The notes under the pieces: generated by a model
Told to the model about the DNA's origin: nothing
Seen by the model: only the letters and a program-made list of their open reading frames with translations
Database searches by the model: none
Part shown: one piece after another, positions 4,438 through 57,962 of the stretch
How the letters are laid out: each line of letters opens with the position of its first letter
Position numbering within the stretch: the first letter of the stretch is position 1
IMG/VR virus record: IMGVR_UViG_3300035698_011646
Span: 1 to 60,372 of that record
Reading direction: 5' to 3' (one strand)
DNA from: a virus
Length of the DNA: 60,372 nucleotides
Made by a program: the position numbers and the translations under genes

Positions 4438-4459
4438 CCTGTGGTGCATGCGCCACGGG
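4438..4459 (+). promoter_or_regulatory. stem-loop directly upstream of the IF-3 ribosome binding site
   Basis: CCTGTGGTG and CGCCACGGG pair as a 9-bp stem (two G-U pairs) around the loop CATG. It ends 5 nt before the GGAGG Shine-Dalgarno (4465-4469) of the IF-3 gene. Only ATTTT follows, so it is a poor terminator and more likely a translational control or RNA stability element. Confidence 0.5.
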
Positions 4460-4473
4460 ATTTTGGAGGAAAG

Positions 4474-5043
4474 ATTTTGGTACAAGGTAAAAAGTTTAGT
4501 AGTCCGCAACGTAAAAATAATTTCGTTCCGTTTAATAGTAGGATTAGGGCTCCGGAGGTCCGCTGCATAGATGCAGAGGGCAACAACATAGGGGTGGTGC
4601 CAATAAGTCAAGCTTTACGCACCGCTACTGATAGCGGCCTGGATTTAGTTCAGATTGCTAAAGGCCAGGATGGCATTCCGATCTGCCGAGTCACTGACTA
4701 TGGCAAGTTTAAATATGATATGTCAAAGCGGCAGAAAGAGACTGCTAAGAAACAGAGAGAGTCTGCCACCAAAACTAAAGAGATTAAGTTCCGTCCATCA
4801 ACTGATACCAACGATCTTGTGGTGAAGGCGGCTAAGGCTATAGAGATTTTGAATAATGGAGACCGAGTGAAAGTTTCCATTATGTTCAAGGGGCGTGAGG
4901 TTACGCACCGTGAAGTTGGGATAGGTGCCCTAAGTAGGTTCCTGGCGCTCGTTCCCAATGGACAGTTTTTGGGTCAGCCGTCGATGCAGGGACGGATATT
5001 GTCTGCAATAATAGATAAGCGAGAAGCGAAAGCCGCTTCATGA
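4474..5043 (+). CDS. infC: translation initiation factor IF-3 (phage-encoded)
   Basis: Full-length IF-3, about 189 aa (E. coli IF-3 is 180). The factor binds the 30S subunit, blocks 50S joining and checks the start codon and initiator tRNA. The N-terminal domain includes NSRIRAPEVRCIDAEGNNIG and the typical end CRVTDYGKFKYDMSKRQKE. A lysine-rich linker follows, then the C-terminal domain with KEIKFRPSTDTND, VKVSIMFKGREVTH and a final basic helix. No ATG is suitable. GGAGG at 4465-4469 is followed by ATT (4474) and TTG (4477). ATT is preferred because the nuclease gene at 16366 starts ATG with the same next 14 bases, and because bacterial infC also uses AUU. The frame is open further upstream to 4441. 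The stop overlaps the deformylase start (ATGA). Confidence 0.9.
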   Translation: MLVQGKKFSSPQRKNNFVPFNSRIRAPEVRCIDAEGNNIGVVPISQALRTATDSGLDLVQIAKGQDGIPICRVTDYGKFKYDMSKRQKETAKKQRESATKTKEIKFRPSTDTNDLVVKAAKAIEILNNGDRVKVSIMFKGREVTHREVGIGALSRFLALVPNGQFLGQPSMQGRILSAIIDKREAKAAS

Positions 5044-6638
5044 TCGTGACCGATGAGAAGGCACTCAGATTGGAGTGCTCTGATGTGCTGCCCGAAGAGA
5101 TAGCAGAACTGCGGGAGGCTCTGGAAACGGAGCTGGAGCAATCTGAAAAAAGGGGCGAGCCAGGTTTGGGCCTGGCCGCTCCACAAATAGGTATCCACAA
5201 ACGAATGGCTATCATTCGTATGGGAGATACTAAAATAGATTTAGTAAACGCTTCAATTGCTTTGGCTTTTGACGAGGCTATTTTTAAAAATGAAGGGTGC
5301 TTATCTTTTCCTGGAAGGACAGAAAACACAAAAAGGCACAAAGAGGTTCATATTTTGGACAATGTGGGGGAGCCAGGAAAGTTTATAGCTACTGGTCTAT
5401 TGGCTGTCGTGGTCCAGCACGAGTGTTTGCCTCACGATGCAATAATTCAAACCGAACATGGTTCGAAACGCATAATTGAAATCGTAAACGAGAAATATGA
5501 CGGTAAAATTTGGTGTTTGGGAAAAGATTTAGTTCCTAAATTGTCGCACGTGATTGGGTGGAGAAAAAATAAGAATATAAATAAAAAGAAGTGGGTCAGG
5601 GTTAAATTATCAACTACCGGCCCTAACAAACAACTAAAATGTACCGAAGATCACGTTTGTGCTTTTACGGATAATATTATGATAAATCCTGTTGTTGGGT
5701 TTACAGAGGCGAAAAATCTTACAGGCAAATATATTATCCGTAAACCTATCTTTAAGGAGAGGAATTCTGAGGTAGCTTTATATAACTCCGATCAAATGTC
5801 CGCTATTGTTGGTGGTTTGTTGGGCGATTTGTGCATCGCTTCTTCTGGAGAAATTATTATTTCTCATGGGGAACCGCAGAAAGAATATGCAAATTATAAA
5901 GCGAATATTCTTGATGGATATGTAAAACCAGGATATTCGGGCTATCGAGATAAGTGGTCAAATGTTGTTGTGCATGCCCCAATAACAGAACAGACCAAGC
6001 TATTGCGAACAATTGCGTATCCCGCCAAGAAAAGAATTAATAAAGAATTATTGCCGTACATTAATGATATTGCTTTGGCTTTTTGGTATATGGATGACGG
6101 TTGCTTTGTTAAAAATAAGTATGCTCAATTTCATACGGAGGGGTTTTATAAAAAAGACCTACAGTTATTACGGGAGTATTTAAAAAATAAATTTAAAATA
6201 AAGGTATCAATATCTCATAGAAAAGTTAGGTCTAAACTTAAATATTATTTGCGATTGGATTTAGAAAATTCGCAACGGTTATTTGATATAATTCATCCGT
6301 ATGTAATTCGGAGTATGGAATATAAGGTTCCTCAATCTTATCGTAACGGGACTAAGGTGACGTTGAGTTCTGCTCGTTTAGGGTTTTCGGTAAAGCGTGT
6401 GACCGCCGTTGACCCTGTCTTTAAGGAAAGTTATTTATATGACATCGAGGTGGAGGGGGATCACAACTTTTTTGCTAACAACACTCTTGTTCATAATTGC
6501 GATCATTTGCGGGGTGTGCTGCTTTCAGATGTGGCCATTTCTGAGCCGCCAGAGCTTCAAAGAAAAAAGAAGTTACGGCCAAATGATCAATGTTTATGCG
6601 GCTCTGGACTTAAGTACAAAAAGTGCTGCTCCAAATAG
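5040..6638 (+). CDS. def: peptide deformylase precursor with in-frame intein and C-terminal SEC-C motif
   Basis: Peptide deformylase removes the formyl group from nascent N-formyl-methionine at the ribosome exit, using a metal held by Cys and two His. Motif 1 is GLGLAAPQ (residues 43-49), motif 2 EGCLS (85-89). Motif 3 (HExDH) is split: residue 128 ends QHE, a 358-aa intein follows, and the sequence resumes CDHLRG. The spliced enzyme would be 174 aa. Instead of the long C-terminal helix of many bacterial deformylases it ends with a SEC-C zinc motif (QCLCGSGLKYKKCC). Translation is coupled to IF-3 by an ATGA overlap. Without splicing the active site is broken, so activity depends on the intein. 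Key residues appear intact. Confidence 0.92.
   Translation: MIVTDEKALRLECSDVLPEEIAELREALETELEQSEKRGEPGLGLAAPQIGIHKRMAIIRMGDTKIDLVNASIALAFDEAIFKNEGCLSFPGRTENTKRHKEVHILDNVGEPGKFIATGLLAVVVQHECLPHDAIIQTEHGSKRIIEIVNEKYDGKIWCLGKDLVPKLSHVIGWRKNKNINKKKWVRVKLSTTGPNKQLKCTEDHVCAFTDNIMINPVVGFTEAKNLTGKYIIRKPIFKERNSEVALYNSDQMSAIVGGLLGDLCIASSGEIIISHGEPQKEYANYKANILDGYVKPGYSGYRDKWSNVVVHAPITEQTKLLRTIAYPAKKRINKELLPYINDIALAFWYMDDGCFVKNKYAQFHTEGFYKKDLQLLREYLKNKFKIKVSISHRKVRSKLKYYLRLDLENSQRLFDIIHPYVIRSMEYKVPQSYRNGTKVTLSSARLGFSVKRVTAVDPVFKESYLYDIEVEGDHNFFANNTLVHNCDHLRGVLLSDVAISEPPELQRKKKLRPNDQCLCGSGLKYKKCCSK
5424..6497 (+). mobile_element. intein with LAGLIDADG endonuclease inside peptide deformylase
   Basis: Starts with Cys (CLPHDAIIQTEHG, block A), has a block-B TxxH-like segment (KCTEDHVCAF), two LAGLIDADG helices (IVGGLLGDLCI and LAFWYMDDGCF) and the C-terminal blocks YLYDIEVEGDHNFFA and LVHN. 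The +1 extein residue is Cys (CDHL). All nucleophiles for protein splicing are present: Cys1, terminal His-Asn, Cys+1. Insertion is between Glu and Cys of the metal-binding HECDH sequence, the most conserved point of the host enzyme. The endonuclease helices look intact, so it may still home. AT-rich like the free-standing homing genes nearby. Confidence 0.92.
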
Positions 6639-6956: not shown

Positions 6957-7268
6957 ATGCAGGCTATTACTAATGAATCTGACTTCAATACTAATGATAA
7001 ATTTATGGCCGTAAAGTTTTGGGCCTCATGGTGCGGCCCGTGTAAAACGATGGAGCCAAATATTAAAAAGATGGAAAAGGAATTTCCGTCTGTTAAATTT
7101 GTATCAATAGATATTGACCAAGTGCCCACTTTGGCCCAAAAGTTCAGAGTAAAGGGGCTGCCCACGTTATTAATTCTTAAAAACGGACACGAAACAAAAA
7201 GAATAAATGGGGCCGTATTAATTGATCCATTAAGAAAGGTCTTCAGGGAGCTGACAAATTCCGAGTAG
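6957..7268 (+). CDS. thioredoxin
   Basis: 103-aa thioredoxin with active site WCGPCK (about residues 25-30), the cis-proline segment VKGLPTLLILKNG and normal family length. It reduces disulfides in the cytoplasm and in phages may serve ribonucleotide reduction or act as a polymerase cofactor; no reductase lies in this window. GGTGAG precedes the ATG with the same spacing style as other genes here. Confidence 0.92.
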   Translation: MQAITNESDFNTNDKFMAVKFWASWCGPCKTMEPNIKKMEKEFPSVKFVSIDIDQVPTLAQKFRVKGLPTLLILKNGHETKRINGAVLIDPLRKVFRELTNSE

Positions 7269-16365: not shown

Positions 16366-17193
16366 ATGTTGGTACAAGGTAAGTTTTTAAAAGTCATTCC
16401 GCAGGACCGCTCTGTTTTCTTAAACCTTTCTGTAAGTAAGGTTAAAACATTCAAAACCTGCAAGGCAAAATATCATTTCTATTACATCCAGAAGCTTCCT
16501 CGTAAAGAGTGGGACTTCCAGGTGTTTGGGAAATTTCTCCATGAGGTTTTAGAGAATTTTCATGCAGAGATACTGAAGGGTTGCAAGGACTCGGATCACA
16601 TTTTGATGAAGAGATGTTTCGGTGACTCTCTAAAAGCGTGGTCGGGCAAACTCGACGCTGACATGAAAAAGGAATGTTACGAAATCCTAACCACGTATTT
16701 AAAAAAGCGGCATGATGATCAGCCGAATGGACTGCCAGAAGTTCTAGAGGTGGAGAAACAGTTCGCTATAGATATCGGTGGTTCCATTTTGTTAAATGGG
16801 TTCATTGATGTCGTGCAGCGGGACCCCGATGGTGTATTACATGTTGCGGATTACAAGACAAGCAAACACAAGAAATATTTAAAGAATGATTTCATGCAGC
16901 TTAAAACATATGCTTATGCTATGTGCCTTGCTGATCCATCTTTAGAGAAGGTTCGATGTTCATATGTAATGCTGCGATTTGGTTTTGAATCTATAGTAAC
17001 GGAGTTCACCCGCGAAGAAGTTATGGCAACAGAACAAGAGTTCGAGGGGTTTGCCGAGAAGATAAAGAAAGAGAAAGTATTTAGGCCTTCGCCCAGTCCG
17101 CTCTGTAAGTTTTGTGATTATTTAAATAATTGCGATGATGGTTTAGAGAAGATGGGAATGTCTAAGGGTAATTTTGGCGAAAGAGATTGGTGA
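16366..17193 (+). CDS. RecB/Cas4-like PD-(D/E)XK nuclease with Fe-S cysteines
   Basis: 275 aa. The catalytic core is visible as GFIDVVQRDPDGVLHVADYKTSK (the acidic D of GFID, then D and K of DYKTSK) followed by the QLKTYAYA helix. A cysteine near the N-terminus (KTCKAKYHFYY) and a C-terminal CKFCDYLNNC cluster match the 4Fe-4S staple of Cas4/AddB nucleases. It probably resects or processes DNA ends with the SbcCD and RecA homologues. Its start ATGTTGGTACAAGGTAA is nearly identical to the IF-3 start region. Confidence 0.85.
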   Translation: MLVQGKFLKVIPQDRSVFLNLSVSKVKTFKTCKAKYHFYYIQKLPRKEWDFQVFGKFLHEVLENFHAEILKGCKDSDHILMKRCFGDSLKAWSGKLDADMKKECYEILTTYLKKRHDDQPNGLPEVLEVEKQFAIDIGGSILLNGFIDVVQRDPDGVLHVADYKTSKHKKYLKNDFMQLKTYAYAMCLADPSLEKVRCSYVMLRFGFESIVTEFTREEVMATEQEFEGFAEKIKKEKVFRPSPSPLCKFCDYLNNCDDGLEKMGMSKGNFGERDW

Positions 17194-17198
17194 GTAAG

Positions 17199-18461
17199 AT
17201 GCAAGAAACAAATACTGCTGTAGAAGCTCCTGTAAATGATCCAGTAGAAATGACTATCACCACCGAAGAGGTGGAGTATTGTAAGGTTAAGGTAGATTAC
17301 GCTGCCAATCCTGAGGCTGTCAGAAAGGCCCGCGGCGAAGCTATTTCTGAACTGTGTGCCGAGAAGCTTCCGGTTCCAGGCTTCCGTCCTGGGAAGGCAT
17401 CGGACCTTGCCATTAAGGTTAAATACAAAGACCGCATTAATAGTTGGGTTAAGAATGAGATGCTTAATCAGGCTAATAACGACATCAAGTACGAAACCAA
17501 AATGCGTCCATTCCACGATCCCAATGTGGAAAGCTCCAAGCTGTCTGGTTCCAAGTTTGTGTGCCAGCTGATGTATCTGACCAAACCGGAGTTTGAGTTA
17601 AAGCAGTATAATGGTTTGGAAATCCCGGCACCCCACATGGATAAGACTGTGGATGAAATGGCCGAGGCTATGCTTAATGATGCTCGGAAAACGCACGGTA
17701 ATGCCACGCCATACGACGATGGTGATTTCGTTCAGGAAGGCGACAAAGTAACGCTTACGTATGATATCCCGAAATTGAAGCTGAAAGAAGAGGGCCAGCT
17801 GTATGTCGTGGGGTCGAACGTATTCCCAGGGTTTGATGATAACCTGATGGGAATGACTCCTAACGAGGAACGCAAGTTTACTACTGAGGTAAAGGGTACC
17901 GAGGCGGAGTGCACGGTTGTTTTACATATGGGCATGAAGACCAAGCCCTGTGCCCTGGACGACACCTTAGCTCAAAAGTGTGGCGTGAAAGATTTTGACG
18001 AATTGCATTCTACGGCCAAGACAATGGCGAACAAGCAGTACGATCTAATTCGTAATAACAAGATTGGGGAGCAGCTGAAAGATCGTCTGGTTGTATCACA
18101 CGATATCAAGCCTCCGGAATGGTTGATAGAGGCGGATGCTCAACATATCGCAGCCCAAGAAGGGGTTAAGTGGAGCGAGCTTGAGGAAGAGGCAAAGAAG
18201 GGTTACCTGGAGCGCGGAGAGAAAAGTTCCAAATTTACATTAATTCTGGATGCCATTAAGCTAGACGAGCCAGAAGTAGATGTGTCAGATGCCGAGGCCA
18301 TTGAGGGCATCAAGAACTCCCTGATAGACCGAGGAATTGCGAACGCCGAGGAATGGCTGCAACAGTCTTTGAAGGGCGGTTCTCTTGGTAAAATGATTGT
18401 TCAATTTAAAAATGATTACACATTACAGTGGTTAGTGGAACATACAAAGGTGGTAGAGTAA
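17199..18461 (+). CDS. tig: trigger factor (ribosome-associated chaperone), phage-encoded
   Basis: 420 aa; bacterial trigger factor is about 430. It docks at ribosomal protein uL23 next to the exit tunnel and holds nascent chains. The N-terminal docking signature VPGFRPGKA (G61-K66) is intact. An FKBP-type PPIase-like segment follows (about 180-260: GDKVTLTYDI and VFPGFDDNLMGM), then a helical C-terminal arm region (residues 270-420). Some segments are diverged from host proteins, and whether PPIase activity remains is unclear. Start at ATG 17199 chosen for GGTGAG 4 nt upstream; TTG 17187 is also open. Confidence 0.86.
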   Translation: MQETNTAVEAPVNDPVEMTITTEEVEYCKVKVDYAANPEAVRKARGEAISELCAEKLPVPGFRPGKASDLAIKVKYKDRINSWVKNEMLNQANNDIKYETKMRPFHDPNVESSKLSGSKFVCQLMYLTKPEFELKQYNGLEIPAPHMDKTVDEMAEAMLNDARKTHGNATPYDDGDFVQEGDKVTLTYDIPKLKLKEEGQLYVVGSNVFPGFDDNLMGMTPNEERKFTTEVKGTEAECTVVLHMGMKTKPCALDDTLAQKCGVKDFDELHSTAKTMANKQYDLIRNNKIGEQLKDRLVVSHDIKPPEWLIEADAQHIAAQEGVKWSELEEEAKKGYLERGEKSSKFTLILDAIKLDEPEVDVSDAEAIEGIKNSLIDRGIANAEEWLQQSLKGGSLGKMIVQFKNDYTLQWLVEHTKVVE

Positions 18462-18785: not shown

Positions 18786-19070
18786 ATGGTACAGAGAAGA
18801 GTAACTAAAACGTGTTGTGGTAGAAAGGCAATAGTCATTACGTCGGAAAAGCCAGTGCGTAAAAACCACATCCAAATGTTTCGACAAGCCGGATTTAACG
18901 TGCCAGAGAACTACGTTAAATCCGGTTTACTTTATGCTAAGAAGGGTGGGTTCATCGCGACGGCCACTTTTGGAATTTGTAACACGAACGTTAGATGTGC
19001 CGGTGCCGGTTGCGATGACACAATCGCTTTATTCGAGGGCATCCTAGCCAAAATTGAAAGAGAACCCTAG
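18786..19070 (+). CDS. hypothetical cysteine-containing protein
   Basis: 94 aa with CC near residue 10 and a later CNTNVRCAGAGC cluster, a possible zinc site. Basic N-terminus. Its stop overlaps the GTG of the polymerase gene (TAGTG). Not recognised. Confidence 0.6.
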   Translation: MVQRRVTKTCCGRKAIVITSEKPVRKNHIQMFRQAGFNVPENYVKSGLLYAKKGGFIATATFGICNTNVRCAGAGCDDTIALFEGILAKIEREP

Positions 19071-22000
19071 TGTCGAGCGGGATGATCCGTTCGGGATCAT
19101 TCTGTATGACTGAAGAGAAGAAAGACTACCTAGACGACGAAGAGTACTCCAAGTTTGGTGGCTCTCCCTATTTGAGCGATTATGTGTCGCTGCATAATCA
19201 TACCACATTTTCTATTTTAGATAGCCTAATCAAACCAATTCAGTTATTTGAGACGGCAAAGCTGTTGGGTCAGAAGGCCGTAGCCGTCACCGACCATGGC
19301 ACCATGGCCGGGATGTGGGACTCGTTAAAGGCATCCCGCAGCACAGGGGTCAAGCTGATAGCTGGGTGCGAGCTTTATTTTGTAGATGACGTGGCTCAAG
19401 AAGATGCCCGTATGCGTCACATTGTTTTATTAGCGAAAAATGAAATAGGTTATAGAAACCTACTATTAATGGAAGCCGCAGGGTATGATAACTTTTCTGT
19501 TGTTTTCCGCAGGGTGTTTCCCCGAATTGATTGGAATATTTTAAAACAGTATTCTGAAGGACTAATGTGTACCACCGCTTGTGCCAATGGTATATTGGGT
19601 CAATTATTAAATAGCAAGCGGGACGCAGAGGCTATGGACCAGGCTGACCGTCTCCAGCAAATATTTGGAGACGATTTAGCTATAGAGATACAGCCCCATG
19701 CTTTAAAAAGAAAAAACACATCCTATTCGGGCGAGGTCGATCAAATTGCCACCAATCGCAAGTTAAGGATTATTGCGGACAATTTGGGCATCAAGTGTAT
19801 TGCGACAAATGACGCACACTATGTGACTCCCAATCAGCATCGGGCACACGATGTGTTGTTGGCCATTGGTTCGGGCCAGCCAGTCAACTCTGGAGCTAGG
19901 CTTAAGTATGACATGGCTACAATGCACATTAAGTCGGCCGAAGAGGTATACAACAAGCTAGCTAGGATACCATCCCAAAGGGACTTTGCCAGGGAGTGTC
20001 TCGAAAATACAAAATACTTCGCGGACAAGTGTGAGTTTCCTGATTGGATTGACCCGAAGTATTCTAATCCGTCTGGTAAAGAGCTGCCCGAGTTCCCGGT
20101 TGACGACCAACCAGACACAGCCCAATTTAAAGCGTGGCTTAAGAACAATCCATTAATCGGGGCAGTTAAGGACCCAGACGAATTATATCTGAGGTACCGC
20201 TGCGACCTAGGGCTGAAGTCCAAAATTCACCCAGACAAACATGCAGAATACCAGGCCCGCCTAGAAGAAGAGTTAGACGTTATCGAATATCATAAGTTCT
20301 CATCCTACATGCTGATTGTGATGGACTACATCGAGTGGGCCAACAATAATGGCATTTCGGTTGGGCCAGGCCGCGGTTCGGTTGGCGGATCATTAATTGG
20401 GTACTTAACGGATATCCACATGGTGGACCCGATTAAGTATGGTCTCATTTTCGCTCGCTTCCACAATAAGCAAAAGACCAGCTTCCCTGATATCGATACC
20501 GACTTTGCTCCCACTGGACGTCCTTTGGTACAGGATTATATCAGGCAGAAGTATGGGGAGCACCATGTGGCACACGTTTCTAACGTGAATACGATGACGC
20601 CCAAGGTTTATGCTCGGGCCATTGCTAGGGCATTTGTGTATGGCAGTGACCGTAAAGCGGCAGTCCAGATTGGTACGGCCATTGCGGACGCCATCCCCAA
20701 CGAAGTCAAGACGGTCCCGAGGGCTTTGGAGAAGGCCGCTCTGTTTGCTGAATATGCCAAGCCCCTATCAGAGGGTGGAGGCGGCTATACAGAGCTGAGA
20801 GATTTTGCAGAAGACCTGGGAGGCAAAGCCGTAGCCTGGTCCACCCACGCTGGTGGTGTGGTAATTGGTCGCAGACCGTTACGCGGTCTTATTCCAATCC
20901 GTCGAGATAAAGAAGGTAACGTAGCGATCGAGTACGAAAAGGAAAGAGCCGAGGCTAATGGTCTGGTAAAGATGGATACGTTGGGTTTGGAGACATTGGA
21001 TATCATCGCCGAGACGTACAGATTAATTGACGAGTGTGGTAAGCCAGCTCCGCCCCGATATCCTAATTTTGATGAATACGATGAGAAGACTTACAATCTG
21101 ATTGGTGACGGAGATACCTTCTGCGTATTCCAGCTGGGAACCTCATCGGGCACTATAGATTTGTGCCGCAAGGTTAAGCCAAAAAATATTGAAGACATTG
21201 CGATCGTCAACAGTTTGGCCCGGCCATCCGCACGTGACATTCGGGCCGACTACATTACTACCCGAAATGGAGATTTGCCCATCCATATCATGCATTCCTC
21301 TTTGGAGCGGGCGTTCAGGCCGACCTTGGGGTTTGGGCTGTACGAAGAGTGTTTGCTCTATTTAGCTCAGGACGTTGCCGGATGGTCGCTACACGAAGCT
21401 GACCGTCTCCGCAAGCTGACTAAAGAGAAGGGTAAAAATCCCGAGAAGGCCAAGAAGTGGAAAGAAGATTTCATTAATGATGCCATACAAAACGGTGTGG
21501 ATAAGAAAACCGCGAAGTCCATCTGGAATGATGTGGTGGATAAGTTCCAGGGCTACGGGTTCAATAAGTCCCATGCAGTTTTCTATAGCCTCATTGGGTA
21601 CCACACAGCTTGGCTGAAGGCCAACTATCCTTTAGAGTTTTTGGTAGCCAACCTTAAATCAGAAGTAAATTCCAATGCGCGTATAGCCAAAGATAATATT
21701 GCAAAAATTAAAGAAGAGATCAGAGCATTAGATGTAAAGATTGTACCCCCGAACCTCAACGAGTCAGAGACCACTTATAAAATCATTGATAATCAAACAT
21801 TGATGACTGGCTTTGATGCATTGAAATACATGGGCAAAGATGCCATCCCGGAGATTTTATCAAAGCGACCCTTCGATAATTTTGAGGATTTCTTAACTAA
21901 GGTTGATGGGACAAAGGTTAGGGCACCAGCCATCCAGGCTCTGGCAGCTTCGGGTTGTTTGGACTCTTTTGGAATGTCCAGGAAGCTCATGTTCCTGTAT

Positions 22001-22783
22001 GCCATGGATTATAAAAAGAAATTAGGTTCTTTCTTGAAGAGGAAGACCAAGAAAGACGGCGAAGAGTTCAAATATCCGTGGCCCCAAGAAGAGGAATGGA
22101 CCATTTCTGAGCGGTGCGCATTGGAACGATACTATTTGGGTGAGAGCTTGAGTGGCGATAAAGTCCAGGCTTATAGCACTCCCAAGACCGGCCGCTTCTT
22201 TACGTATGATGCTAAGGAATTCAGGCACTTACCTAAATTGCATCCGGCTCCACCCGCCGCTATGACAGTAAAAGAACAAAGAAAATATACCAAACATATT
22301 ACTCGTTTACAAGCCGAGGTCAAGAATATGTTTGAATTCAAGGTTAAGAAGGAAGATTCAAAAATTAAAGGCGAAGTTATGGCCAAGGTCACATTGGAAG
22401 ACCCACATGGCAACCAAATGACCATGACCTGTTTCCCTGACAGCTGGGTGAAGTTGCAGAACCGATGTTTGGAACTATCTAATAATAAACACAAATTAGA
22501 TATTGGGGTGGGATTATATTTGAATGGCGAGCTGAATTGGTATGATGGAGATTTGTCCCTCATATATGGAGACCTTACGAGGTTTTCTCCCCCGCCTCAA
22601 CTACCTGATGACCTGAAGGCCAAAAAAGTAACTATGCGAAGAGCGAAGAAATCTGCATCTATAAACGATGAGGATGACCGCAATGTTATTTTGGATGAAT
22701 TAGAGGAAGAGTTAATAGAAACTGGAAACTCAGATTTGGACGACGAGGATGATGACGAATATAATCCTCCAGCACCATTTTGA
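19070..22783 (+). CDS. dnaE: DNA polymerase III alpha subunit (DnaE-type)
   Basis: About 1225-1237 aa C-family replicative polymerase. N-terminal PHP domain (SLHNHTTFSILDS; VTDHGTMAG). Palm domain with GPGRGSVGGS and catalytic PDIDTDF (D476, D478), and the third acidic site in VKMDTLGLETLDII. Helix-hairpin region and OB-like C-terminus, ending in a very acidic tail (SDLDDEDDDEY). No 3'-5' exonuclease domain is fused. Start uncertain: GTG 19070 is coupled to the previous stop, ATG 19082 follows CGGG, and ATG 19106 directly follows a hairpin. No clamp or clamp loader is seen in this window. Confidence 0.95.
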   Translation: MSSGMIRSGSFCMTEEKKDYLDDEEYSKFGGSPYLSDYVSLHNHTTFSILDSLIKPIQLFETAKLLGQKAVAVTDHGTMAGMWDSLKASRSTGVKLIAGCELYFVDDVAQEDARMRHIVLLAKNEIGYRNLLLMEAAGYDNFSVVFRRVFPRIDWNILKQYSEGLMCTTACANGILGQLLNSKRDAEAMDQADRLQQIFGDDLAIEIQPHALKRKNTSYSGEVDQIATNRKLRIIADNLGIKCIATNDAHYVTPNQHRAHDVLLAIGSGQPVNSGARLKYDMATMHIKSAEEVYNKLARIPSQRDFARECLENTKYFADKCEFPDWIDPKYSNPSGKELPEFPVDDQPDTAQFKAWLKNNPLIGAVKDPDELYLRYRCDLGLKSKIHPDKHAEYQARLEEELDVIEYHKFSSYMLIVMDYIEWANNNGISVGPGRGSVGGSLIGYLTDIHMVDPIKYGLIFARFHNKQKTSFPDIDTDFAPTGRPLVQDYIRQKYGEHHVAHVSNVNTMTPKVYARAIARAFVYGSDRKAAVQIGTAIADAIPNEVKTVPRALEKAALFAEYAKPLSEGGGGYTELRDFAEDLGGKAVAWSTHAGGVVIGRRPLRGLIPIRRDKEGNVAIEYEKERAEANGLVKMDTLGLETLDIIAETYRLIDECGKPAPPRYPNFDEYDEKTYNLIGDGDTFCVFQLGTSSGTIDLCRKVKPKNIEDIAIVNSLARPSARDIRADYITTRNGDLPIHIMHSSLERAFRPTLGFGLYEECLLYLAQDVAGWSLHEADRLRKLTKEKGKNPEKAKKWKEDFINDAIQNGVDKKTAKSIWNDVVDKFQGYGFNKSHAVFYSLIGYHTAWLKANYPLEFLVANLKSEVNSNARIAKDNIAKIKEEIRALDVKIVPPNLNESETTYKIIDNQTLMTGFDALKYMGKDAIPEILSKRPFDNFEDFLTKVDGTKVRAPAIQALAASGCLDSFGMSRKLMFLYAMDYKKKLGSFLKRKTKKDGEEFKYPWPQEEEWTISERCALERYYLGESLSGDKVQAYSTPKTGRFFTYDAKEFRHLPKLHPAPPAAMTVKEQRKYTKHITRLQAEVKNMFEFKVKKEDSKIKGEVMAKVTLEDPHGNQMTMTCFPDSWVKLQNRCLELSNNKHKLDIGVGLYLNGELNWYDGDLSLIYGDLTRFSPPPQLPDDLKAKKVTMRRAKKSASINDEDDRNVILDELEEELIETGNSDLDDEDDDEYNPPAPF
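19078..19104 (+). promoter_or_regulatory. stem-loop at the start of the polymerase gene
   Basis: ATGATCC and GGATCAT pair perfectly around GTTCG and extend to 11 bp with two G-U pairs. The stem covers ATG 19082 and ends 1 nt before ATG 19106, so it could modulate which start codon is used. Confidence 0.4.
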
Positions 22784-27229: not shown

Positions 27230-27784
27230 ATGAGGATATTAGGTCTGGACATTTCAAGTACGACAATCGGTGCTGCGTTAATAGAACAGGACGGCGACAA
27301 GTTTGAATTATTGTATCACGAGTATTTCAAACCGCCAAAGAAAACCAGCTTGTTTGAAAGTTTATATCAAACACGACAATGGATTATAGCAAGGGTTCTT
27401 GCTTGGGTGCCCGACGAGGTAGTCATAGAGGAAATTGCTCAGCATTTCGCGGGCCCAGGGAAGGGCGGCAGTTCTGCTGCCACAATTATCAAGCTGGCAG
27501 TGTATAACCGAACCGTTGGCCTGGCTATATATGAAAATCTAAATAAGGACCCGGTCTTGCTAAACGTCAACACAGTGCGTAGTATAATAAAGCCGTCTGG
27601 ATACCGCGGACGTTTGGCTAAAAGTGATGTGCCAGAAGTGGTGGCGGCAATATTGAAAGTAGATTTCCCGTATGTGTTAAAGAAAAACGGAAAGATGGCC
27701 GATGAGAGTTGTGATATAGCGGATGCCATGGCGGTAGCTTTGGCTTTTGGAGCATTGGAACGAGCTAAGAAAATACCACAATGA
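27230..27784 (+). CDS. RuvC-like Holliday junction resolvase
   Basis: 184-aa RNase H-fold nuclease: LGLDISSTTIG (D7), VVIEE (E67/E68), and a C-terminal acidic pair in SCDIADAMAVAL. Resolves branched DNA after recombination and before packaging. Length is close to bacterial RuvC (about 170). First gene after the terminator; TTATATAT lies about 12 nt upstream and could be part of a promoter. ATGA overlap with DnaJ. Confidence 0.85.
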   Translation: MRILGLDISSTTIGAALIEQDGDKFELLYHEYFKPPKKTSLFESLYQTRQWIIARVLAWVPDEVVIEEIAQHFAGPGKGGSSAATIIKLAVYNRTVGLAIYENLNKDPVLLNVNTVRSIIKPSGYRGRLAKSDVPEVVAAILKVDFPYVLKKNGKMADESCDIADAMAVALAFGALERAKKIPQ

Positions 27785-28746
27785 CACTCAACGAAGCATA
27801 TCGAACCCTTGGGGTTCAACAAGGCGCATCCAAAGACGAAATATCCAAGGCTTTCAAGAAGCTGGCGGCGGAGTGCCATCCAGACTCTACTAAAAAGCCA
27901 GACGAAGAGAAGTTTAAAAAGATAAACTCTGCCAAGCAAACAATTGATAATCCCCCACCAGAAATGCCAAGGCGTTCAAATCCTGGTTGGAGTCAGGTCG
28001 TTCAGATCAATATTGGTGGCAGCCGCAGTGGGCCCAAAGTTTATCCAGAACCAGTATTGGATGTTGATTTAACATTTGAAGAGTCTGTCATGGGGGCGAA
28101 AAAGAAGATTGTGTATGACAGATACACGAAATGTCATGAATGTATGGGCCAAGGCTTTATAGTAGGTGTCAATATTTGTAAGGACTGTCATGGTCAGGGT
28201 GCCACCGCAGTCCAACAAGGCCGGGTCAGGACGGTCCAGGAGTGCCCCACATGCCGAGGGACAGGGAAAGAGGTAACAGATTGTGTAAAATGCAATGGGG
28301 AGGGCGTAAAGAAGCAATCTGTGACCCAGGAGGTCCAGCTGCCGTTCAGCTTACGGGATACCCAGCTCATTCGTGGCGGTGGCAGTGGCAATTACCGTGG
28401 CTCCATGCCTACTCCGTTTGGTGGGCCACGGGATGTTTACGGAGATGCTTTAATTAGAATTCATGTAACGCCAGACCCAGATATGTCTTTGGACGATGAT
28501 GGAGTTAATCTTTTATCTACAATCAAATTAACATTGGTAGACGCCCTGAGTGGTATTAATAAAAAGGTCAGGACACTTAAAGGAGAATTGACTCTTAAAA
28601 TTCGACCGGGCTCGAAGAACGGCCATCAAATCGTAGCGCAGAATTACGGTCCTGGATATATAGGAAATCATATCTTCATTCTGGATGTAGAGTATCCGTC
28701 GGACACGGCAGAACTTATAGAATTTTTAAATAAACAGGAGAATTAG
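27781..28746 (+). CDS. dnaJ: DnaJ (Hsp40) co-chaperone, full length
   Basis: 321 aa with an N-terminal J domain containing the HPD tripeptide (AECHPDST, about residues 37-41), four CxxCxGxG zinc repeats (CHECMGQG, CKDCHGQG, CPTCRGTG, CVKCNGEG) and C-terminal substrate-binding domains. It would stimulate host DnaK and hand substrates to it; no phage DnaK is in the window. The linker is short compared with host DnaJ. The HPD motif is intact, so it should be functional. Confidence 0.93.
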   Translation: MTLNEAYRTLGVQQGASKDEISKAFKKLAAECHPDSTKKPDEEKFKKINSAKQTIDNPPPEMPRRSNPGWSQVVQINIGGSRSGPKVYPEPVLDVDLTFEESVMGAKKKIVYDRYTKCHECMGQGFIVGVNICKDCHGQGATAVQQGRVRTVQECPTCRGTGKEVTDCVKCNGEGVKKQSVTQEVQLPFSLRDTQLIRGGGSGNYRGSMPTPFGGPRDVYGDALIRIHVTPDPDMSLDDDGVNLLSTIKLTLVDALSGINKKVRTLKGELTLKIRPGSKNGHQIVAQNYGPGYIGNHIFILDVEYPSDTAELIEFLNKQEN

Positions 28747-30408: not shown

Positions 30409-30433
30409 ACACATCTTAAGTATGAAGATGTGT
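30409..30433 (+). promoter_or_regulatory. stem-loop enclosing the start codon of the HNH gene
   Basis: ACACATCTT (30409-30417) and AAGATGTGT (30425-30433) form a perfect 9-bp stem with a 7-nt loop AAGTATG that contains the start codon at 30422. It should hinder translation of full-length mRNA, as known for phage T4 intron endonuclease genes. Confidence 0.6.
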
Positions 30434-31447
30434 ACAAAATGTAAAGAAGACAAAGATTTATCATGTTTCGCAGCACGAGCTACCAGTCCAGACGGGCTGC
30501 AAGTTATATGCAAAGCGTGCCAAAAGCTTTATAGGGAAAAGAATAAAAACAAACAACCCACGCCCCCGAAAGATGGTATTCTTCGGTGTACGGCGTGCAA
30601 ACAGGATAAGCCGGTAGGCTCATTCAACAAGTCCTCATCTACTAAAACTGGTTATTTCAACTGGTGTAAAGACTGCGCCAGGGAAAACCAGACGAAGAGG
30701 AATGAGAAATATCGTGAAAAACATGGTATTAGGGAGGACGCCCAACGAAGGCGTGACAGGGTATCGTGGTTTAGAGAGTTAAAAGCCAACGAACCTTGTG
30801 CTGATTGCGGTATAACTTATGAACCATATTGTATGGATTACGACCATTTACGAGACAAAGTTAAATCAGTTTCCCGGATGGTTTTAGAAAATACACCAAA
30901 AGAAACTATATTAAAAGAAATAGAAAAATGTGAATTAGTTTGTTTATTGTGTCATAATAAAAGAACATATGGGCGTCAGACCAGGCGAGACGAGTCTAAA
31001 TATTCAGAAACCCAGGAAAAGAATTTTGAAATAATCAAACGGGCCAAAGACGTTCCGTGTAGCAAATGTGGTGTCCGGCGGGAACAATATAATATGCAGT
31101 TCGATCATTTGGACCCAACCGTTAAATACAAAGATGTATGCCAGTTAAAAAATTATAAAACAGAAACATTAATTAAAGAAATTGAAAAGTGCCGGGTAAT
31201 ATGTGCGATTTGTCATCGTCGTGAGTCATTGTTGGGGCAGAGAATTGGATTATATTCGGAAAAAAGAATAAAAAAATCGAAACGATACATTGGGGAGACA
31301 GAGCAGGAATGCCGGAAGTGTTTAGAGACAAAGCCATACAGTTGTTTTACCAAGCATGCTGTGACAAAAAACGGGTATAGCTCTTGGTGCAAAGATTGTT
31401 TTAACAAGTATAGGCAAATTAAACGGCGGACATATTTGATGAAGTGA
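30422..31447 (+). CDS. double-HNH endonuclease with three zinc-finger repeats
   Basis: 341 aa. Two HNH-like units are seen: CADCGITYEPYCMDYDHLRD with CELVCLLCHNKR, and CSKCGVRREQYNMQFDHLDP with CRVICAICHRRE. They are flanked by three similar zinc-binding repeats, two N-terminal and one C-terminal (CTKCKEDKD...CKACQ; CTACKQDKP...CKDC; CRKCLETKP...CKDC). Likely a free-standing homing-type nuclease; the repeats would read an extended DNA target. AT-rich codon use at parts of the core suggests acquisition. It sits between the replication region and the virion block. Confidence 0.82.
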   Translation: MKMCTKCKEDKDLSCFAARATSPDGLQVICKACQKLYREKNKNKQPTPPKDGILRCTACKQDKPVGSFNKSSSTKTGYFNWCKDCARENQTKRNEKYREKHGIREDAQRRRDRVSWFRELKANEPCADCGITYEPYCMDYDHLRDKVKSVSRMVLENTPKETILKEIEKCELVCLLCHNKRTYGRQTRRDESKYSETQEKNFEIIKRAKDVPCSKCGVRREQYNMQFDHLDPTVKYKDVCQLKNYKTETLIKEIEKCRVICAICHRRESLLGQRIGLYSEKRIKKSKRYIGETEQECRKCLETKPYSCFTKHAVTKNGYSSWCKDCFNKYRQIKRRTYLMK

Positions 31448-57218: not shown

Positions 57219-57962
57219 ATGGGTAAGTTAGGAATAAATGAACTTAGGCAAAATAAAAACGAAATAATGCTGGGATACAAAGAGGGGCAATCTACACATA
57301 AGCTTGCGAAAAAATACAATACGTTTCCGGCACAAATAAATAAGTTATTAAGAGAAAATAAAATTTCATTGCGGCCGGCGAATATAAAAAACGATATTGA
57401 GTTAAGCGGTGAGTTTGGTGAGATTTTGGATGGGTGGTTGCTGGGAGACGGACATATAGCCAGCGTGGGAATACAGGCGTATTTTTCTTTAGCTTCAAAA
57501 TATGAAGAATATATAAAATATGCCATTAAATTATTTGAGCGAAATGGTATCGCGTGCAAACAGTATTGCGCCGTCCAATTTGATAAAACTTATTATCGTA
57601 TGCATTCAAAAAGCACTCTACAATTAGGTGAATTACATCGCAGGTGGTATATTAAAAAGAAGAAAATAGTTCCAAAAGATATTGAATTGGCGCCAGATTT
57701 AATTAAACACTGGATAATGGATGACGGAACTTATGATAGAAATAAAGGACATTTACGTTTATGCACTAATGGGTTTAAACCAGAAGAGTGCGATATGTTG
57801 GCCGTGATGTTGAATAAATTTTTGGGAGTCACTGATATTCATACCATCGAAAAAAAGGTTAACACAACTAGGATATATCTGTCAAGGAATAGCACATTAG
57901 TGCTATATAAAAGGGTAGGGGCGTTGCCTGTGGTTTGTTTTAATTATAAGATGCCTCAATAA
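57219..57962 (+). CDS. LAGLIDADG homing endonuclease, free-standing
   Basis: 247 aa. N-terminal HTH (QSTHKLAKKYNTFPAQINKL) and two LAGLIDADG helices (ILDGWLLGDGHI; HWIMDDGTYD). Very AT-rich compared with its neighbours. Inserted in the gap between a terminator and the decoration-like gene, so it interrupts no reading frame. It differs in domain order from the endonuclease at 1348, whose HTH is C-terminal. Confidence 0.88.
   Translation: MGKLGINELRQNKNEIMLGYKEGQSTHKLAKKYNTFPAQINKLLRENKISLRPANIKNDIELSGEFGEILDGWLLGDGHIASVGIQAYFSLASKYEEYIKYAIKLFERNGIACKQYCAVQFDKTYYRMHSKSTLQLGELHRRWYIKKKKIVPKDIELAPDLIKHWIMDDGTYDRNKGHLRLCTNGFKPEECDMLAVMLNKFLGVTDIHTIEKKVNTTRIYLSRNSTLVLYKRVGALPVVCFNYKMPQ

Follow-up and report, generated by a model that had tools for sequence, protein, structure and literature searches.

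The window, that is, the whole stretch of DNA analysed here, is an IMG/VR record of 60,372 bases and represents a fragment, a linear virus contig. All of its named genes lie on the plus strand and, together with those collected in Table 1, include genes for a terminase, a portal-like protein, RecA-like, RuvC and SbcC/D-type proteins and a DnaE-type polymerase (some identified from translations alone). No tRNA gene was found within the window. Two free-standing LAGLIDADG homing endonuclease ORFs were observed at 1348-2121 and 57219-57962, and the translation of 30422-31447, judged by eye, is a 341-aa protein in which Cys-rich and HNH-like motifs recur.

Table 1 Coordinates of features discussed in the text (window positions, unless the large relative G026 is named)
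Feature	Position	Strand	Evidence
Initiation factor IF-3	4441..5043	+	TIGR00168, 154.3 bits (cut-off 60); IF3_N and IF3_C both above cut-off
Peptide deformylase (PDF) precursor with intein	5040..6638	+	Pep_deformylase, LAGLIDADG_2, Intein_splicing, SEC-C
Intein, 358 aa, with LAGLIDADG endonuclease	5424..6497	+	TIGR01443/TIGR01445 splice blocks
SEC-C metal-binding motif, PDF C-terminus (residues 515-531)	6582..6632	+	PF02810, 27.9 bits
Thioredoxin, adjoining PDF	6957..7268	+	PF00085, 87 bits; tblastn match in 27/53 relative loci
PD-(D/E)XK / Cas4-like exonuclease	16366..17193	+	PF12705, 109 bits; conserved 5' neighbour of TF in 52/53 relatives
Trigger factor (TF) homologue, 420 aa	17199..18461	+	Trigger_N, TIGR00115, AlphaFold/Foldseek, 53 viral relatives
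TF N-terminal ribosome-binding domain, predicted (residues 18-133)	17250..17597	+	VIA match to 1oms
Docking loop GFRPGKA (residues 61-67)	17379..17399	+	Conservation across 54 phage TFs
FKBP-fold domain with eroded isomerase pocket, shortened in the window phage (~residues 172-250)	17712..17948	+	FKBP/SlyD structural matches
C-terminal helical chaperone domain (residues 251-420)	17949..18458	+	Model helices; 1w26 and 3gty alignment through residue 420
DNA polymerase III alpha (DnaE-type)	19070..22783	+	Translation read only; conserved 3' neighbour of TF in 53/53 relatives
DnaJ co-chaperone	27781..28746	+	PF00226, PF00684, PF01556 above cut-offs; J domain, Cys-rich, C-terminal domain
Type I methionine aminopeptidase (MetAP)	G026 208039-208800		Also in 14 other large records

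The IF-3, deformylase and DnaJ genes named in the earlier note on this DNA all proved real, and DnaJ carries the HPD motif of its J domain at residue 33; the intein of the deformylase had gone unmentioned there. The ATG of the PDF gene overlaps the IF-3 stop codon (ATGA), and the intein splits the active-site motif HE/CDH (junction GLLAVVVQHE/CDHLRG). After its removal the motifs GLGLAAPQ, EGCLS and HExxH are all present in the window protein, and with the insertion inside the catalytic motif, activity is expected only of the spliced enzyme. No comparable insertion was seen in the open frames of PDFs matched in related records, and we found no paper on a deformylase intein in the open-access literature.

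The C-terminus of the PDF carries a second peculiarity. A Cys-x-Cys...Cys-Cys (or Cys-His) tail is found on 33 of 35 related PDFs (loci L086-L133), 20 of which fit the strict SEC-C pattern, and this SEC-C-like tail replaces the basic C-terminal helix of E. coli PDF. The catalytic core resembles that of cyanophage PDFs (36.8% identity to the ACG-2014f enzyme), whereas the isolate-phage PDFs among the matches listed align over residues 23-142 only and leave the tail unmatched. In SecA, the metal-binding domain bears a SEC-C motif and, fused to SUMO, sediments together with ribosomes (PMC6620043); by analogy, the tail may anchor the phage PDF to ribosomes, which would suggest a second way of placing an enzyme at the tunnel exit.

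Family, fold and domains of the trigger factor homologue

The ATG at 17199 is preceded by the SD-like GGTGAG. The viral relatives begin at the residue equivalent to Met18 (ATG 17250), so that the first 17 residues are likely an N-terminal extension, unless the true start is at 17250. The protein matched Pfam PF05697 (Trigger_N) with 72.2 bits (cut-off 22.2) and PF05698 (Trigger_C) with 20.6 bits, slightly below the cut-off of 22.7. The NCBIfam model TIGR00115 ('tig') was matched over positions 1-408 of 410 with 152.7 bits, short of the equivalog cut-off of 180.2, which the TF of the large relative G026 (154.6 bits) did not reach either. A phmmer search of the PDB sequences with the window TF alone yielded zero matches at 0.001; a family profile did match, the profile of ten phage TFs finding E. 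coli TF (1w26) with an E-value of 5.8e-33 over residues 17-417.

The AlphaFold2 model (pLDDT 83.5, pTM 0.62) has the TF architecture, and its best matches in the PDB are the TFs of T. maritima and E. coli (Foldseek E-values 7.5e-19 and 8.8e-16; VIA Z 17.7 and 17.6, respectively). The N-domain alone superposes on that of E. coli (1oms) with a VIA Z of 13.5 (115 residues at 2.1 A), FKBP/SlyD structures match residues 172-250 with Z 8-9, and the C-terminal chaperone domain is covered by TIGR00115, by the ten-sequence profile to 1w26 and by structure. The large overall rmsd between the model and solved TFs probably reflects domain placement. The view of the earlier note that the gene encodes a true, full-length TF thus agrees with the Trigger_N score, with the end-to-end TIGR00115 match and with the TF-like model; the protein comprises all three domains and is a diverged trigger factor homologue, not an equivalog by TIGR00115. 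Among phage protein families, PHROG 26774 (function unknown) aligns with residues 18-318 of the window TF (54 bits); it already assembles TF-like phage proteins, under neither a function nor a trigger factor annotation.

The docking motif GFRPGKA pointed out in the earlier note lies in the most conserved stretch of the phage protein. In E. coli numbering, Gly43, Phe/Tyr44 and Arg45 are present in 54 of 54 phage TFs (G[FY]R being invariant), Gly47 in 52 and Lys/Arg48 in 49, and among 409 windows of the same spacing along the protein no other equals this loop. Position 46 is usually Pro, likewise in most of the bacteria sampled. The final Pro of the classical GFRxGxxP is relaxed: it is retained in 13 of the 54 proteins and replaced by Ser or Thr in most, with Ser in the window TF.

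The prolyl-isomerase pocket shows the opposite trend. The active-site aromatics of E. coli TF we take to be F168, F177, F185, F198, Y221 and F233. At positions 177, 185 and 221, aromatic residues occur in 79, 75 and 100% of the bacterial TFs, a limited comparison set biased toward sequences fitting the phage pattern, and in 2, 0 and 2% of the phage TFs. Positions 168 and 198 are retained in the phage proteins, and 233 is aromatic in 78% of them. In the window TF, position 233 holds Cys, position 177 falls in a gap and the FKBP hairpin is missing as well. With most of the catalytic aromatics gone, isomerase activity of the phage TF is doubtful; their absence argues against catalysis and leaves the TF fold untouched. 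Of the FKBP-like middle domain proposed earlier, the fold therefore stands and the activity is in question. The chaperone role of E. coli TF can do without isomerase activity, which supports reading the phage protein as a ribosome-bound holdase.

Taken against bacterial TF (Tig; PF05697/PF05698, TIGR00115; E. coli 1W26), the phage proteins share the three-domain order, the G[FY]RxG loop, the FKBP fold in mid-protein, the helical C-terminal chaperone domain and a length of ~415 aa. They differ in the lost pocket aromatics, the relaxed docking Pro, the sub-threshold equivalog score, the best bacterial identity found (~26%) and their separate place in the tree.

A clade of uncultured huge phages

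A viral scan with the window TF as single query returned zero matches, and an alignment of 10 TF sequences was needed as a query to recover the viral relatives. With it, 53 further viral loci were found, all metagenomic contigs (up to 481 kb), with TFs 31-50% identical to that of the window. Relatives of the window terminase occur on contigs of up to 452 kb, and 11 of 25 such records have the TF. The record G016 (181 kb) is without TF, PDF and DnaJ; as its terminase is located close to an end of the contig, the TF block is probably outside it. Isolate-phage terminases among the matches listed are ~25-28% identical to that of the window, by which measure the clade is without a close isolate in the isolate collection.

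The 53 TF-bearing contigs belong to one uncultured huge-phage clade. All of them carry the same gene block on one strand, comprising, in this order, SbcD, SbcC, dNMP kinase, PD-(D/E)XK exonuclease (52/53), TF, DnaE (53/53) and RecA-like genes; in E. coli, by contrast, tig stands beside clpP-clpX. A tree of 70 sequences separated all 47 distinct phage TFs, as one clade (support 100/99), from the bacterial TFs in the set. The stem of this clade measures 1.37 changes per column; its exact placement is not to be read from this tree, given the long branches and limited bacterial sampling. The phylogeny and HMM searches that the earlier note had proposed thus place the protein in the TF family and in a lineage of its own. 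dN/dS between close pairs was mostly ~0.05-0.12, an approximate range since dS is near saturation, and on these values the phage TF is under strong purifying selection.

TF hits in isolate-phage records were rejected as relatives. The one assigned to Acinetobacter phage MD-2021a (CAKLQH020000005.1, a 220-kb record) lies in tig-clpP-clpX chromosomal DNA; with tatABC and other chromosomal genes at the same record end, at least that part looks bacterial. Those in faecal and wastewater records are on unannotated 'unverified' contigs (22-32% identity); four of them were included in the tree, where they grouped with bacteria.

The genes for IF-3, PDF, TF and DnaJ do co-occur in the related phages, contrary to the outcome that the earlier note would have taken as refuting it, their joint absence from every related phage. 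Among the 53 TF-positive records, PDF was found in 44, DnaJ in 52 and IF-3 in 25. In the nine records that lack PDF, fewer than 8 kb precede TF, and in the sole one lacking DnaJ 3.2 kb follow it; all these absences fall on contigs that end too early, so that among these records every contig of sufficient length has PDF, TF and DnaJ. IF-3 adjoins PDF in the window's own subclade and lies ~13-28 kb upstream elsewhere. PDF stands ~9.1 kb 5' of TF wherever the locus extends that far, and DnaJ 10-13 kb from TF; replication and repair genes lie in between, and the set is not one operon. Of the 19 records that reach 200 kb or more, 15 encode peptidase M24 (MetAP). Against the type I model TIGR00500 (cut-off 171.35), five of six copies examined scored 212.8-231.1 bits; the sixth, from G012, is degenerate (79.8 bits) and seems to be without metal ligands. 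Ribosomal protein S21 is present in all 19. DnaK/HSP70 was sought in 34 large records and found in none, so that the phage DnaJ can feed only host DnaK; of the DnaJ-to-DnaK transfer envisaged in the earlier note, the co-chaperone is phage-encoded and its partner would be the host's.

Proposed role in infected cells

As the docking loop is the most conserved part of the protein and the isomerase pocket is eroded, we infer that the protein acts as a holdase on the ribosome and that its prolyl-isomerase activity is weak or absent. We consider it probable that this is a phage-adapted TF that docks on host ribosomes and attends nascent chains alongside the phage PDF, MetAP and DnaJ. During infection, its N-terminal loop would dock at the tunnel exit of the host ribosome (the uL23/uL29 site), a binding suggested by the conservation of the loop, and the phage TF would compete with or replace the host TF. 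The N- and C-terminal domains of the phage protein would cradle nascent phage proteins, for which it may have a preference, with little or no isomerase activity. PDF would act on the same nascent chains, its SEC-C tail possibly tethering it to the ribosome, as would the MetAP of the larger members, and DnaJ would pass clients to host DnaK. The missed equivalog cut-off, the relaxed docking Pro with the usual Pro at position 46, the place of the gene in a replication block, the restriction of the co-occurrence to one clade and the presence of IF-3 in only 25 of 53 records are counted against this reading. If it holds, the phages offer an experiment of nature on the importance of the individual TF activities, docking and cradle having apparently been kept by evolution and the isomerase dropped.

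Another possible explanation is that the protein, while keeping the TF fold, is a chaperone dedicated to a single large phage protein or to a handful of them (for instance DnaE or structural proteins), mostly off the ribosome. The position of the gene within a replication block makes such a narrower role possible, for example in folding DnaE, which follows TF in all 53 loci, or another large phage protein; TF also acts off the ribosome, and the eroded FKBP pocket would fit. However, an off-ribosome role leaves unexplained why the docking loop should be the most conserved part, and we regard this explanation as unlikely. It is quite improbable, in our judgement, that the protein is a decoy which fills the exit site and displaces host TF, SRP or SecA, so that host folding and export are redirected or suppressed and phage proteins not helped. 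A decoy would account for a conserved loop beside a lost pocket, and the exit site is also the target of the PDF and MetAP that these phages encode; yet a decoy needs the N-domain only, and the entire C-terminal chaperone domain is kept under purifying selection. That the gene was picked up accidentally from a host, or that the contig is contaminated with bacterial DNA, as isolate records such as that of MD-2021a apparently are, has a negligible probability and is ruled out by synteny and the tree: a single long-stemmed phage clade, one phage gene block, contigs of up to 481 kb and little bacterial identity.

Returning to the ribosome-docking holdase, a more speculative extension, rather doubtful at present, is a phage-specific nascent-chain line in which S21 and IF-3 would bias initiation, while a SEC-C-tethered PDF, MetAP, an isomerase-free TF and DnaJ would hold the tunnel exit. 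If this were true, infected cells would hold ribosomes with a wholly viral nascent-chain service. It should be noted that the co-occurrence reflects shared ancestry in one clade and shows retention, not joint working or a dedicated 'system'. Of the undescribed combined system suggested in the earlier note, the TF appears new; IF-3, PDF and DnaJ have been published from phages, the genes form no operon, and their co-occurrence is that of a single clade.

Descriptions of how phages control translation have so far centred on tRNAs, initiation and elongation. According to the main text of Al-Shayeb et al. 2020 (PMC7162821), huge phages encode IF1, IF3, S21, L7/L12, PDF and elongation, release and recycling factors, and these translation genes, including tmRNA and tRNAs, were proposed to redirect host translation; trigger factor, chaperones, DnaJ and aminopeptidase are not mentioned in that main text. 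DnaJ and IF3 are also known from jumbo phages (PMC7824862), and some moraphages have both DnaK and DnaJ, where signs of recent transfer from the host were reported (PMC12619734). The clade described here shares DnaJ with moraphages and other jumbo phages, but is without DnaK and has a TF. Phage translation toolkits, as well as IF-3, PDF, S21 and DnaJ in large phages, are therefore already known; a TF found clade-wide that retains its docking loop and has lost isomerase residues, the SEC-C-tailed PDF and the clade-wide MetAP appear to be new. In the open-access literature, including jumbo-phage papers of 2026, we found none naming a phage TF. A clade-wide viral TF would extend phage takeover to co-translational folding and, together with the clade's own protein-finishing enzymes, suggests virus control of protein finishing, beyond initiation.

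Several of the factors in the toolkits of Al-Shayeb et al. are also found in the 435-kb relative G026, from which toolkits the present clade differs in covering later nascent-chain steps clade-wide. G026 encodes ~20 tRNA genes, a tmRNA, an L7/L12-like protein and ClpP. Its tmRNA gene is located at L157 17812-18149 and a tRNA with a CUA anticodon at L160 8687-8760. A 192-aa RF1-like protein, corresponding to the C-terminal part of release factor 1 only, is encoded at 343016-343591 (L173 3016-3591, minus strand), directly upstream of dnaJ and overlapping it.
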